Shown: positions 3,434-18,858 of the stretch, piece after piece
Layout: each line of letters begins with the position of its first letter
Position numbering within the stretch: position 1 is the stretch's first letter
Virus record (IMG/VR): IMGVR_UViG_3300032736_000966
Coordinates: 1-24,415 of that record
DNA: 24,415 bases
Origin: a virus
Reading direction: 5' to 3' (one strand)
The notes under the pieces: generated by a model
The model's input: only the letters and a program-made list of their open reading frames with translations
Database searches by the model: none
Told to the model about the DNA's origin: nothing
Program-made: the position numbers and the translations under genes

Positions 3434-4137
3434 TTATTCCTTTTTACCCAAGAGGGCAGATATCAATCGGCTGTGCGCCTCGGGCTCGGGCGGCGTTTCT
3501 TGCGTAGGCGCCCGGGGTTCGGTAGCGCCGCGAAGTGCCGGCATGAAATCGTCCGCCCGGTAGGCGTCCTGGCCTTCGCGCCGGTGCACGTTGGCGAGCG
3601 TTGCGCAAATCTGCCCGAACCCGAAATCTGCACGTGCATCCGGCATCCCCTCGAGCCCGGCAAACGCCATCCATTCGGCCACCTGCTGACTGCTTAAGCG
3701 TTCGAGGAGGTGATCAGGGTGGGCGAACCCGAGGGCAAGGCAGAGGCGGAAGTAGAAACGGCGCTCGGGACGCCGCTGGAGTTTTTTGAGAGTTCATCCA
3801 CATCTGCGCCCGACAGGCCGTTCAGCTTTTGCGCAATGGCAAAGATCCGGTCCAGTGCTGCGCCGGATTTGGCACCGAGCAGATCGACCTCGTCGTCGGT
3901 GAAGATGCGCTGGCCGGTTTCATCGATCACAGTGAGACCCACCAGGCGCGCGCGCATGTTGGTCAGGTCAACCTTGCGGTCACGGCCCTCGCCTCGGACC
4001 ATGCTGGCTTCGAACGCATCGCGCTCACGGCCGGTGAAGCTGCGCACACGAACGGCACCGCCCCATTCGGGGACCTCGATGTCTTCGGATTTGAGGTCGT
4101 TCGCGGCGAGGATGGCGGTTTTACTGAGTAGCGACAT
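3434..4137 (-). CDS. Tail assembly chaperone GT fusion made by -1 frameshift
   Basis: The product is about 234 residues. Translation starts at ATG 4137 in the gpG frame, reads 119 codons to the slippery heptamer at 3787-3781, shifts back one base and continues 115 codons to TAA at 3434-3436. The -1 frame encodes a coherent domain beginning RRFYFRLCLALG, then LSSQQVAEWMAFAGLEG, and later ICATLANVHR and DFMPAL. These are characteristic of the lambda gpT / DUF4035 family. There is no in-frame ATG before VAEWMAF, and an independent start would have to use GTG at 3682 and cut off conserved sequence. In lambda, gpG and gpGT bind tape measure and tail tube protein and are absent from the virion; the same role is inferred here. 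Confidence 0.88.
3694..4137 (-). CDS. Tail assembly chaperone, short form (gpG-like)
   Basis: A 147-residue protein made when ribosomes do not frameshift. I chose ATG 4137 (MSLLSKTAILAANDL) because GGAG lies 7-8 bases upstream; a GTG at 4164 would add nine residues but has no ribosome binding site and lies in a hairpin. The protein has the acidic, mixed-fold character of tail chaperones (SEDIEVPEWGGAVRVRSFTGRERDAFEAS), and its last 28 residues after the slip site are low-complexity Ser/Thr/Pro, as expected of the unshifted tail. It lies between tail tube and tape measure, separated from the tail tube by the inserted toxin-antitoxin pair. The N-terminal MSLLSKTAILA and RSFTGRERDAFE elements are typical of this family in HK97-like phages. 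Confidence 0.85.
   Translation of the reverse strand: MSLLSKTAILAANDLKSEDIEVPEWGGAVRVRSFTGRERDAFEASMVRGEGRDRKVDLTNMRARLVGLTVIDETGQRIFTDDEVDLLGAKSGAALDRIFAIAQKLNGLSGADVDELSKNSSGVPSAVSTSASALPSGSPTLITSSNA
3757..3787 (-). promoter_or_regulatory. Programmed -1 ribosomal frameshift signal
   Basis: The minus strand reads A AAA AAC in the gpG frame at 3787-3781, a canonical X XXY YYZ slippery heptamer. After a 5-base spacer comes a hairpin with stem CGGCG (3775-3771) and CGCCG (3763-3759) and loop TCCCGAG. One G-U and one A-T pair (3776/3758 and 3777/3757) can extend it. The downstream -1 frame is open and encodes the gpT-like domain, whereas the 0 frame stops at 3694. Site, spacer, hairpin and coding potential all agree. 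Confidence 0.9.
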
Positions 4138-4254: not shown

Positions 4255-4587
4255 ATGGATTACACGATCACTTACTACAGCGAAGCTGTGCAAGAGCAGA
4301 TTGGCGATCTACCTGACACCCTGGCTGCCCGCTATGTTGTGTTGACGCGCCGAATGGTGGCGCTTGGCCCGAACCTGGGTGAGCCACATACCAAGGCGTT
4401 CGGGGATGGACTGTTTGAGCTGCGGCTCAAAGGCGCCGAGGGGATTGCGCGGGTGTTTTTCTGCACCCTGATTGGCAAACGTATCGTGATGCTGCACAGT
4501 TTTATCAAGAAGACGGATCGAACGCCCAAGCGAGAGCTTGATGTAGCCCAAGCCAGGTTGAAGGAAATAAAACATGAAAACACATGA
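4255..4587 (+). CDS. Type II toxin, Gp49/HigB-like (RelE superfamily)
   Basis: A 110-residue basic protein with the pattern of the phage-derived Gp49-like family: an N-terminal helix pair (LPDTLAARYVVLTRRMVALG), then GEPHTKAFGDGLFELRLKG, then a hydrophobic strand pair (ARVFFCTLIGKRIVMLHSFIKKT) and a charged tail. Family members are RelE/HigB-fold mRNA interferases that cut mRNA at the ribosome. The toxin gene comes first and overlaps the antitoxin gene by 14 bases, the usual HigBA order. The pair lies on the strand opposite the late operon, between tail tube and tail chaperone, as an inserted cargo module. A protective or stabilising role in the lysogen is inferred. Confidence 0.9.
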   Translation: MDYTITYYSEAVQEQIGDLPDTLAARYVVLTRRMVALGPNLGEPHTKAFGDGLFELRLKGAEGIARVFFCTLIGKRIVMLHSFIKKTDRTPKRELDVAQARLKEIKHENT

Positions 4588-4861
4588 CCAGTTTGTAGCG
4601 AAGTTGATGAAGCGCCCCGGCGTCAAAACCGAGGTCGCACGTATTGAGCGCGAGGAAGGCGTGCTGCTCGATACGCTGCTTCGGGCCAGACGCGAGGCCG
4701 GCCTGACACAAGCTGACGTTGCTGCACTGATGGGGACACAGCCCCCATCGATTGCTCGGCTGGAGCGCGCACTGGCCACCGGCAAGCACTCGCCATCGAT
4801 TGCCACGCTGCGCAAATACGTCAAAGCCTGCGGCAAGGACCTGGTCGTCAAGATCACCTGA
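4574..4861 (+). CDS. HTH antitoxin, HigA-like (XRE family)
   Basis: A 95-residue protein with a helix-turn-helix at about residues 44-64 (LTQADVAALMGTQPPSIARLE) and the typical C-terminal segment SIATLRKYVKACGKDLVVKIT. It starts inside the end of the toxin gene, giving translational coupling; AAGGAAATAAAAC lies just ahead of the ATG. Antitoxins of this family bind and inhibit the cognate RelE-fold toxin and repress their own promoter, here probably through the palindrome at 4231-4244. Its stop lies 13 bases from the end of the convergent tail tube gene, so transcription from the two sides meets here. Confidence 0.9.
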   Translation: MKTHDQFVAKLMKRPGVKTEVARIEREEGVLLDTLLRARREAGLTQADVAALMGTQPPSIARLERALATGKHSPSIATLRKYVKACGKDLVVKIT

Positions 4862-15561: not shown

Positions 15562-15590
15562 TTGACTAATGCATACTGGATATGCATAAT
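15562..15590 (+). promoter_or_regulatory. BrnTA promoter with embedded operator
   Basis: A near-consensus promoter: TTGACT (15562-15567), 17-base spacer, CATAAT (15585-15590). The spacer holds a perfect inverted repeat, ATGCATA and TATGCAT separated by CTGGA (15569-15587), placed where a bound repressor would block RNA polymerase. BrnA is known to autoregulate, so this is its likely operator. The first base of transcription would fall at or next to the BrnT ATG (15598). Confidence 0.85.
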
Positions 15591-15597
15591 GCCGCAG

Positions 15598-15864
15598 ATG
15601 GAGATCGGATTCGATCCGCGTAAAGCGGCCGCCAATCAGCGCAAACATCGCGTCTCATTTGATGAGGCGGCCAGTTGCCTGCTCGACCCGCAGGCGCTCG
15701 TGATGGAAGACGCTCGGGCGGAAGGTGAGTCACGATGGTTGCTAGTTGGCATGAGCAACCAGGCTCGATTATTGACCGTCGTCTACACCTTGCGCGAGGA
15801 CAATCCGCGCCTGATTTCAGCCCGAAAGGCCACTACCAAGGAGGCTAAAAGCTATGCAACCTGA
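15598..15864 (+). CDS. brnT: BrnT toxin
   Basis: An 88-residue toxin from ATG 15598 (MEIGFDPRKAAANQRKHRVSFDEA). This start matches the usual BrnT N-terminus (short strand, DP-K, then ANxxKH-VSF-EA). An ATG at 15589 overlaps the -10 box and cannot be used from this promoter. The C-terminal strands RLLTVVYTLRED and RLISARKATTKEAKSY carry the conserved Arg/Glu pattern of this RelE-fold ribonuclease, which halts translation under stress. It overlaps the BrnA gene by 11 bases. There is no Shine-Dalgarno sequence, consistent with a leaderless transcript. Confidence 0.93.
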   Translation: MEIGFDPRKAAANQRKHRVSFDEAASCLLDPQALVMEDARAEGESRWLLVGMSNQARLLTVVYTLREDNPRLISARKATTKEAKSYAT

Positions 15865-16126
15865 ATACGATTTTTCCAAAGCAAAGCGCGCCAAGAATGT
15901 TCCGCACCTCACCAAGCTGCGGGCATCGATGAAGGGGAAGACCCGCATCACCATCATGCTTGACGATGATGTGATCAAAACCTTTCGCGACCGTGCTGAG
16001 GAGCGCGGCATTGGCTATCAAACCGCGATCAACGAGGCGCTGCGTGCAGCTGCCGGCGCTGAAGATGTGCCTGTTACCGTAAAAATTCTACGTGAAGTGT
16101 TGCACAAGGAACTACGCTCCAGATAG
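15854..16126 (+). CDS. brnA: BrnA antitoxin
   Basis: A 90-residue antitoxin. The N-terminus is a polar toxin-binding segment (MQPEYDFSKAKRAKNVPHL), and residues about 30-68 form a ribbon-helix-helix DNA-binding domain (TRITIMLDDDVIKTFRDRAEERGIGYQTAINEALR). BrnA dimers bind BrnT and repress the shared promoter. AAGGAGG lies a few bases ahead of its ATG within the brnT reading frame, giving strong translation of the antitoxin relative to the leaderless toxin. Its last 15 bases overlap the end of the convergent methyltransferase gene on the other strand. Confidence 0.93.
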   Translation: MQPEYDFSKAKRAKNVPHLTKLRASMKGKTRITIMLDDDVIKTFRDRAEERGIGYQTAINEALRAAAGAEDVPVTVKILREVLHKELRSR

Positions 16127-17374
16127 TTCTGGTTTCACCAGATCCGCAAACAGTACGCCGTCGCTGGCGCGTTTGGCTTCCTTGCCCGTGAAATCCTGAA
16201 AGCGCCGGCAGATAACGTCGACGTACTTCGGATCGAGTTCCATCAATCGTGCGCGGCGTCCTGACTTTTCACAGGCGATGATCGTGGTGCCGGAACCACC
16301 GAAGGGATCGAGCACGATGTCGCGCGTCTTGCTGCTGTTGCGCACCGCACGCTCCATCAACTCCACGGGCTTCATGGTTGGATGAAGATCGTTCTTGTGG
16401 GGTTTCTTGATCTGCCACACATCGCCCTGGTCGCGTGCGCCGCACCAGTAGTGCTGCGCGCCGTCCTTCCAGCCGTACAGAATCGGCTCGTACTGGCGCT
16501 GGTAATCGGCGCGGCCCATGGTGAAGGTGTTCTTCGCCCAGATGACAAACGTCGACCACTTGCCACCAGCGGCACGGAATGCCGCTTGCAGCGTGTCGAG
16601 TTCCGAAGAGCTCATCGCGATGTAGACCGCGCCCTTGGTGACGGCCAAAATGTTCTGACAGGTCGCGAGCAGGAACGGTGCGAATTCCGAGCCGAGGTTG
16701 TCGTTCAAGATTGGGCGGTTGGTGCCGCGCATTTTGTCCTTGGCGCTGTTGGCGTAATTAACTCCATAAGGAGGATCGGTCACCGTCATGTCGGCAAGTT
16801 CATCACCGAGCAAGGCTTTGTAGTCCTCAGCCTTGGTGGCGTCCCCACACAGCACCTTGTGCTCGCCGAGCAGCCACACATCCCCGAGTTTTGAGATGGC
16901 CGACTCGGTGACCTCAGGCACCGCATCATCATCGGTCAGACCTTCTTTGTCTTCATCGCCAGCAATCAATTCGCTCCACTCATCTTCGGAGAAACCGGTC
17001 AATTCAAGATCGAAACCAGCATCCTGCAGTTCAGCCAACTCTAGGCCCAGCAGTTCGTTATCCCAGGACGCGTTCTCGCCGATCTTGTTGTCGGCCAGGA
17101 TCAGTGCCTTGCGTTGGATGTCGGTGAGGTGTGCCATCGGCACCACGGGGACTTCTGCCATACCGAGTTTGCGTGCAGCGAGTACGCGTCCATGTCCAGA
17201 AACGATGTTGTTTTTTCCATCGACGATCACCGGCGCACCCCATCCGAACTCGACGATGCTCGCGGCGATCTGGGCAACCTGTGCATCAGAGTGCTGCTTG
17301 GCATTGCGGATGTAAGGGATCAGGGATGCGACCTGGCGCAGTTCGATCTTGAGGTCGGTAACCGGGTTACGCAT
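16112..17374 (-). CDS. ParB-domain DNA methyltransferase (DPPY, probable N6-adenine)
   Basis: A 420-residue protein from ATG 17374, with AGGAG upstream; the extra seven residues of a longer start lie in the previous gene. Residues about 10-130 are a ParB/Srx-like domain (SGHGRVLAARK at 59-69). The catalytic half has motif IV TDPPYG (199-204) before HPTMKP (331-336) and the SAM-binding DPFGGSGTT (356-364), the order of beta-class amino-methyltransferases. DPPY suggests N6-adenine as product. No restriction enzyme gene is adjacent, so an orphan phage methyltransferase protecting phage DNA or altering regulation is likely. It overlaps the upstream paralogue by 8 bases. The target sequence cannot be told from the sequence. 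Confidence 0.93.
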   Translation of the reverse strand: MRNPVTDLKIELRQVASLIPYIRNAKQHSDAQVAQIAASIVEFGWGAPVIVDGKNNIVSGHGRVLAARKLGMAEVPVVPMAHLTDIQRKALILADNKIGENASWDNELLGLELAELQDAGFDLELTGFSEDEWSELIAGDEDKEGLTDDDAVPEVTESAISKLGDVWLLGEHKVLCGDATKAEDYKALLGDELADMTVTDPPYGVNYANSAKDKMRGTNRPILNDNLGSEFAPFLLATCQNILAVTKGAVYIAMSSSELDTLQAAFRAAGGKWSTFVIWAKNTFTMGRADYQRQYEPILYGWKDGAQHYWCGARDQGDVWQIKKPHKNDLHPTMKPVELMERAVRNSSKTRDIVLDPFGGSGTTIIACEKSGRRARLMELDPKYVDVICRRFQDFTGKEAKRASDGVLFADLVKPELSGA

Positions 17375-18779
17375 GGGCCAACTCCTGAACGCCAAGACGG
17401 GCGGTTGTTACCTCGTGGTAGGTTTGCCCAGTTGCGGCCAGGGTGACCGCCACATCTGGAAAGTTCTGCTGAAAGCGTTTCACCGCCACATCCACGTATT
17501 CGGGTGCGATCTCTACCGCACGACACCGACGACCTGAACGCTGCGCAGCCAGCAGCGTCGTGCCACTGCCACAAAAGGGCTCGAACACGATGTCGCCCTG
17601 ATCGGTGTAAGAGTTGAAAACCAATTCAGGCAGCGCTACTGGGAACACAGCCGGGTGGTCAATGTCCTGGCCAATCTTGCCCTTGTGGCGCATCACCCGA
17701 ATCACTGAGTCGGGAATCTTGTTGTCCTGTGTCGGCTGGCCTGCTGCTGTCCACGCATTGACTGTGCCATCTTTGGCCCGCATCGCTGTGGACGTGCCGT
17801 CAGCGCGCAGATGGGATTCCTGACCCGCGTGTTTGCACGGAACAATCTTGTTGGGTTTACGGCTCTGGCGGTTGAAATGAAATACGAATTCAAAGCTTGG
17901 CGCAAGACGCCCTTGCCAGTCGCCGGGCATCCCCGGCCCCTGATCCCAAACGTACCAAGCAAATCGACGCCAACCCTGTACCCGCATCCACGCGAGCCAG
18001 CCTTCCCAATATGGGATGACTTCGTTGTCGCGGTGGATCAGCCCGAGGTTGACCAGCACCTGGCCGTCGCTGGCCATCGGCAGCGTGGCAAACACGCCGC
18101 GCATCAGAGCGTCCCAATCGGGGATGGCGTTGGTGCTCAGTTGCGTGTATTGGCGCTGGCTGCCATAGGGCGGCGAAGTGAAACACAACTTGGCCTCGTC
18201 ACCGGTCATCAATCCGGCAATCACATTGGCATCGGCAGCATCGCCACAGATCAGGCGGTGCTGGCCCAGTTGCCACACATCACCCACGCGGGACACCGGT
18301 GTACCAGATACCGTCGGCACATCGTCGACTGCGTCGCTATCAACATCTTGCGCGCCCTCATCGTTATCGGCATCGATGCCGCCAGAGAGCAAGGACTCGA
18401 TCTCCGCATCCGCAAAGCCAGTGAGCGCCAAGTCGTAGCCGGCCTCGGTCAAGTCTGCCAGTTCCAGCGCCAGCAACTCTTCGTTCCAGCCTGCATCCAG
18501 GGCGAGCCGGTTGTCTGCAATCACGTAGGCACGCTTTTGCGTGGGCGAGAGGTGCGCGAGTTCAATCACCGGGACTTCGGTCAACGCGAGCTTGCGCGCA
18601 GCCGCCAGACGGCCGTGGCCACAAATCAGGCCATTGGCCCCATCGACGAGCAACGGACTTGTCCAGCCAAATTCGACAATGCTGGCGGCGATGCTGGCCA
18701 CCTGAGCATCGCTATGGGTGCGGGCGTTGCGGACAAACGGGATCAGCGAGTCGACCAGGCGGTACTCGATGTTGAGCAT
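17367..18779 (-). CDS. ParB-domain DNA methyltransferase (SPPY, probable N4-cytosine)
   Basis: A 470-residue protein from ATG 18779 (MLNIEYRLVDSLIP); a start at 18857 would add 26 residues encoded by terminator hairpins and is rejected. Residues about 5-130 are a ParB/Srx-like domain (CGHGRLAAARK), about 57% identical by my count to that of the following gene, so the two arose by duplication. The catalytic domain is different: TSPPYG (201-206), a long middle segment and FEPFCGSGTT (399-408). SPPY is the typical N4-cytosine signature. It leads the two-gene methyltransferase operon immediately after two terminators. No clear Shine-Dalgarno sequence is visible. Confidence 0.92.
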   Translation of the reverse strand: MLNIEYRLVDSLIPFVRNARTHSDAQVASIAASIVEFGWTSPLLVDGANGLICGHGRLAAARKLALTEVPVIELAHLSPTQKRAYVIADNRLALDAGWNEELLALELADLTEAGYDLALTGFADAEIESLLSGGIDADNDEGAQDVDSDAVDDVPTVSGTPVSRVGDVWQLGQHRLICGDAADANVIAGLMTGDEAKLCFTSPPYGSQRQYTQLSTNAIPDWDALMRGVFATLPMASDGQVLVNLGLIHRDNEVIPYWEGWLAWMRVQGWRRFAWYVWDQGPGMPGDWQGRLAPSFEFVFHFNRQSRKPNKIVPCKHAGQESHLRADGTSTAMRAKDGTVNAWTAAGQPTQDNKIPDSVIRVMRHKGKIGQDIDHPAVFPVALPELVFNSYTDQGDIVFEPFCGSGTTLLAAQRSGRRCRAVEIAPEYVDVAVKRFQQNFPDVAVTLAATGQTYHEVTTARLGVQELAHA

Positions 18780-18796
18780 GACGATTGTGGTTTTCC

Positions 18797-18849
18797 AAAA
18801 AAAACGCACACGCACGAGGAATGGTTTTTCCCCGTAGCGAGTGCGCGTG
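18797..18849 (-). terminator. Terminator directly upstream of the methyltransferase operon
   Basis: On the minus strand CGCGCAC (18849-18843 region) pairs with GTGTGCG (ending at 18805), and three more pairs follow after a mismatch. Eight T residues come next (18804-18797), then the methyltransferase ATG at 18779. A long imperfect stem with a U8 tract is a typical intrinsic terminator, placed in front of a gene rather than behind one. Confidence 0.65.
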
Positions 18850-18858
18850 ACGAACATT

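Follow-up and report, generated by a model that had tools for sequence, protein, structure and literature searches.

Two overlapping reading frames in the tail gene region of the 24.4-kb IMG/VR virus record analysed here (the window) raise the question of whether they are two genes or a single gene with two products. We addressed this computationally. The first frame encodes a gpG-like tail assembly chaperone of 147 aa on the minus strand (4137-3694, from ATG 4137 to the stop at 3694). The second is a gpT-like extension of 115 codons on the same strand (3781-3434), contained in a -1 frame that is free of stops from 3793 to 3434. The minus-strand tail genes run in the order tail tube (5522-4875; Phage_TTP_11, E 2.3e-12), gpG, tape measure (3426-919; Tape_meas_lam_C, E 2.4e-28) and distal tail protein (922-323), with gpT directly preceding the tape measure gene. 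This position between tail tube and tape measure is the one expected for a gpG/gpGT chaperone. On comparative sequence evidence, we consider it highly probable (about 0.96) that this is a lambda-type gpG/gpGT locus with a -1 ribosomal frameshift at A_AAA_AAC.

Both domains have recognizable relatives. The gpG protein matched the profile phrog_344 (E 6.8e-31), while its match to PF06222 (E 9e-4) reached 19.5 bits and thus remained below the gathering score of 25. When the AlphaFold model of gpG was searched with Foldseek, the best solved fold was the HK97 tail assembly chaperone 2OB9 (E 2.8e-4, probability 1.00), with which it shares a predicted fold at a sequence identity of 18-19%; the best viral model match was the tail assembly chaperone of Arthrobacter phage Salgado. 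The gpT extension matched PF06223, Phage_tail_T (Minor tail protein T), with E 3.8e-14 and 53.3 bits against a cut-off of 25.9, and also phrog_337 (E 4.7e-11). Sequence searches of solved structures gave no meaningful match for either gpG or gpT.

The candidate slip site, A_AAA_AAC, lies at 3787-3781 on the minus strand (AAA at 3786-3784, AAC at 3783-3781) within the codons TCA AAA AAC of gpG's own frame, and zero-frame gpG continues for 28 codons beyond it. It is followed by TCCAG (3780-3776), CGGCG (3775-3771), a 7-nt loop and CGCCG (3763-3759); the heptamer, 5-nt spacer and GC stem had all been placed correctly in the preliminary description. In-frame heptamers of this kind are not rare in the window, where the main ORFs contain 8 compared to 8.2 +/- 2.7 expected from codon shuffles, and the chance of at least one in gpG is P ~0.06. 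The heptamer in the window alone could therefore be due to chance, and a single sequence would not prove a frameshift.

Comparison with relatives places the heptamer far beyond chance. Relatives were drawn from viral contigs, bacterial genomes and phage records and filtered at 90% identity over the junction, leaving 41 non-redundant sequences with the window included. None of the peptide patterns used in the search covers the heptamer, although one, RPERRFYF, comes from the part of gpT shortly after it. A heptamer of the form X_XXY_YYZ was present at the gpG/gpT junction in 39/41 sequences (AAAAAAC in 29, GGGAAAC in 6, AAATTTA in 2, and AAATTTC and GGGTTTC in 1 each), counts that are not probabilities since related sequences are not independent. 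The AAATTTA, AAATTTC and GGGTTTC sites are one codon further on than those of AAAAAAC and GGGAAAC, and no A/G intermediate heptamers were seen among the 41 junctions. Before AAA AAC or GGA AAC stands a codon for any of several residues (V, T, A, E, S, R, K, L), but in every case its third base is the same as X, in genes in which A fills only 16% of wobble positions. Elsewhere in gpG such heptamers occur at about 0.0017 per codon. Among close relatives, the lowest third-position diversity of ~180 codons was found in the 10-codon stretch that starts two codons before the heptamer. The -1 relation and the heptamer recur together in independent contigs down to ~35% identity, and also in genomes of Limnohabitans and other Comamonadaceae.

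Several junctions depart from the common form. Two relatives (L103 and L132) lack a canonical heptamer; in each, G_GAT_TTA occupies the position one codon downstream at which related sequences carry A_AAT_TTA or A_AAT_TTC, and these two may have moved to a non-canonical site. Another (L123) carries two A_AAA_AAC heptamers in the same frame, 9 nt apart.

We then compared the conservation of the two frames in 30 sequences, the window included, that were found through gpG peptides only in order to avoid search bias. The canonical heptamer was intact in 30/30. Mean pairwise amino-acid identity upstream of it was higher in frame 0 (0.768) than in frame -1 (0.425). On the downstream side frame -1 was the better conserved (0.725, against 0.463 for frame 0) and contained no stops, compared to 10 in frame 0. 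The conserved frame therefore switches at the heptamer from 0 to -1. In six relatives a zero-frame stop directly follows the heptamer, which indicates that the zero-frame tail past the heptamer is dispensable in these relatives.

A gene caller would report gpT as an 82-aa ORF starting at GTG 3682 (3682-3434, minus strand). It could accordingly be argued that translation of gpT as a protein of its own begins at GTG 3682 (or ATG 3670), coupled to the termination of gpG at 3694, as an ORF with a GTG start can be read mechanically and the end of gpG is only about a dozen bases upstream of it. However, this GTG is preceded by no Shine-Dalgarno sequence (anti-SD energy of only -0.5 kcal/mol), and no start position for gpT in the -1 frame was conserved across the relatives compared, in which the first possible start after the junction is scattered from +36 to +135. 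Protein-level constraint on the -1 frame begins at the heptamer, whereas GTG 3682 lies 33 codons downstream of the slip site. Initiation there would lose about 33 conserved residues, as had been pointed out before: RPERRFYFRL, the most conserved part of gpT, is wholly upstream of the GTG, and the two helices with which the predicted gpT fold begins (7-17 and 22-28) would both be deleted. We judged that GTG 3682 is not the real start and regard independent initiation of gpT as very improbable.

Slippage of RNA polymerase on the run of six consecutive A in the window might also produce a fusion. Six A is short for transcriptional slippage, however, and relatives with GGGAAAC, GGGTTTC or AAATTTA keep the X_XXY_YYZ pattern without a long homopolymer, so that this explanation appears even less probable than separate initiation. 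That a mutation or an error in sequencing split a single ancestral gene into the two frames is the least credible explanation, for even though part of the SEA-PHAGES genomes have a single chaperone gene (PMC10885494), the -1 relation and heptamer recur in the independent contigs and bacterial genomes described above. All three alternatives were rejected on this evidence.

A gpG/gpGT chaperone pair made by -1 frameshifting, as first proposed for this DNA, is thus supported by the family profiles of both domains, the predicted fold, the gene order around the overlapping frames, the conserved heptamer and the switch of the conserved frame. The following account of slippage, of how often it occurs and of what each product does is inferred. 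Most ribosomes would read gpG to the stop at 3694, and a minority would slip back one base at A_AAA_AAC (3787-3781) and enter the -1 frame, yielding a gpGT fusion of 234 aa (gpG up to the slip site plus the -1 extension). In tandem slippage on A_AAA_AAC, the zero-frame Asn-tRNA is kept in the A site; the junction is therefore expected to read mainly ELSK-N-LQRR. The ELSKKLQ junction suggested previously would not be the main product (ELSKNLQ is expected) and is possible as a minor one. For mass spectrometry of the junction peptide, as had been proposed, a protease other than trypsin is needed, because trypsin cuts after Lys and leaves only NLQR.

By analogy with lambda, both products would coat the tape measure protein through their G part, gpGT, the rare one, would recruit the tail tube subunit through its T part, and both would then leave the assembly. 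For lambda itself, it is known that the G part binds the tape measure, the T part binds the tail tube and neither is found in the virion, and that gpGT must be low relative to gpG, at about 1 to 30 (PMC5009743). A_AAA_AAC, the classic heptamer of eukaryotes, has been described as inefficient in E. coli (PMC4066793, PMC5009743), so that to call this frameshift "textbook", as was done initially, is loose wording, even though the gpG/gpGT reading itself holds. In insertion sequences, A_AA.A_AA.C and G_GG.A_AA.C are listed as used, low-efficiency motifs (PMC4066793). As a lambda-type role needs little gpGT, a low-output A_AAA_AAC fits the small gpGT fraction expected. Against the frameshift reading stand the inefficiency described for the heptamer in E. 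coli, a hairpin within chance, a degraded GGATGA element and the PF06222 score below gathering.

The hairpin and GGATGA were considered as candidate stimulators. Not every known case depends on a stimulating RNA structure downstream of the slip site. The predicted stem-loop, CGGCG-TCCCGAG-CGCCG (3775-3759, minus strand), is lengthened by RNAfold to 8 pairs at -11.7 kcal/mol. In the window it did not differ significantly from dinucleotide shuffles (z -0.74) or exceed chance relative to synonymous recoding (P 0.14). All 5/5 core pairs are present in just 9/41 sequences, close relatives only, and the hairpin was therefore rejected as a general part of the signal, a correction to the preliminary description. 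Two of the nine (L044 and L101) show a compensatory G-C to C-G double change in the stem. Covariation was weak (P ~0.04-0.05 at two pairs, 41 sequences), and the stem is partly explained by coding, since both covarying pairs fall within Arg codons of the -1 frame. Many other sequences fold no better than synonymous recodings; some of these have a different stem further downstream (L049, L051, L106, L123 and L149) or a stop right behind the heptamer.

Upstream of the heptamer, the window has GGATGA (3799-3794, minus strand), a weak element, where most close relatives have GGAGGA, complementary to the anti-SD. GGAGGA is common among relatives at a 6-nt gap from the heptamer and is on average the strongest anti-SD site in gpG, at -5.7 kcal/mol compared to -3.8 for the next best cluster. 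Its z of -3.2 in synonymous shuffles is not extreme relative to values elsewhere in the gene (sd 1.33, minimum -4.65), and the gap counts as short because spacings of 9-14 nt are given for -1 shifts (PMC5009743). The evidence for GGAGGA as an upstream SD-like stimulator, of which the window would hold a degraded copy, is suggestive. Both it and the stem are possible stimulators, lineage-specific at best. A composite signal, with GGAGGA ~6 nt before A_AAA_AAC or G_GGA_AAC and the Arg-codon stem added in one clade, is a tentative proposal that we consider rather unlikely; if true, it would be adapted to the ribosomes of betaproteobacteria and to a heptamer reported to work poorly in E. coli.

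The locus resembles that of lambda in its place between tail tube and tape measure, in a -1 slip near the 3' end of gpG, in a T domain without its own start and in PF06223. It differs in its heptamer, A_AAA_AAC as opposed to G_GGA_AAG in lambda, and the gpG sequences are only remotely similar. The lambda chaperones were described by Levin (1993) and by Xu, Hendrix and Duda (2004), as reviewed in PMC5009743. Compared by heptamer, the window also resembles the phiCbK-like phages (gp93/gp94 in phiCbK), for which A_AAA_AAC is published at the tape-measure chaperone frameshift, and Colossus, with G_GGA_AAC (PMC3556154), although these belong to a different phage group; the same heptamers are published for haloarchaeal viruses (PMC5009743). 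E. coli dnaX likewise offers three elements that can be proposed here (an upstream SD-like sequence, an A_AAA_AAN heptamer and a downstream stem), but it uses the far more shifty A_AAA_AAG; in the present family the SD-like element and the stem are at best confined to certain lineages, and the SD gap is ~7 nt compared to 9-14 nt given for -1 shifts (PMC5009743).

Relatives by sequence include Streptomyces phages phiSASD1 and Dubu and Rhodococcus phage Jflix2, whose homologous gpG proteins are 42-52% identical and for which GenBank annotates the -1 extension as a joined CDS. The junction heptamer is GGGAAAC in phiSASD1 and Dubu and GGGTTTC in Jflix2. The heptamer of phiSASD1 and Dubu is followed at once by a TGA stop, whereas gpG of the window goes on for 28 codons. 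The GenBank records of Madraxi and PHTowN leave the two chaperone parts separate. In Rhodococcus phage Madraxi, a relative of Jflix2, GTCTTTC replaces GGGTTTC (L151, 1839-1899), no canonical heptamer is present and the record lists two separate chaperone genes.

The gap between the tail tube gene and gpG drew attention on its own account. In the window it is interrupted by a toxin-antitoxin pair (4255-4861, plus strand; a Gp49/HigB-like toxin and an HTH antitoxin), antisense in the tail operon, and many relatives have no insert. The same gap is occupied in L002, L004, L011, L136 and L139. In close relatives it is either empty (21-49 nt) or holds ParE/RHH, BrnT/HTH or YafQ/RelB, and orphan genes of 270 aa (L011, L036) and 142 aa (L139) are also found there. 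The gap is thus a cargo slot filled by different modules in different relatives, and it looks more interesting than the frameshift itself. A terminator-like hairpin with a T run (4175-4159, minus strand), oriented with the tail operon, immediately precedes the ribosome-binding site of gpG; such hairpins also lie upstream of gpG in L002, L004, L011 and L139, and at the end of several occupied slots. Elsewhere, the window carries a second toxin-antitoxin pair, a BrnT toxin with a BrnA antitoxin (15562-16126, plus strand), and two consecutive DNA methylase-type genes (N6_N4_Mtase; 16112-18857, minus strand), the first with a weak ParB N-terminal domain.

This kind of frameshift and these heptamers are already known in phages, and the locus adds another case. 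In this phage family, which occurs as prophage in Limnohabitans and other freshwater Comamonadaceae, the correct gene model is a single gene yielding two products; a gene caller would instead give two genes and shorten the second by 33 conserved residues. The natural heptamer variants at this one site would offer a ready-made set for testing which of them function outside E. coli.
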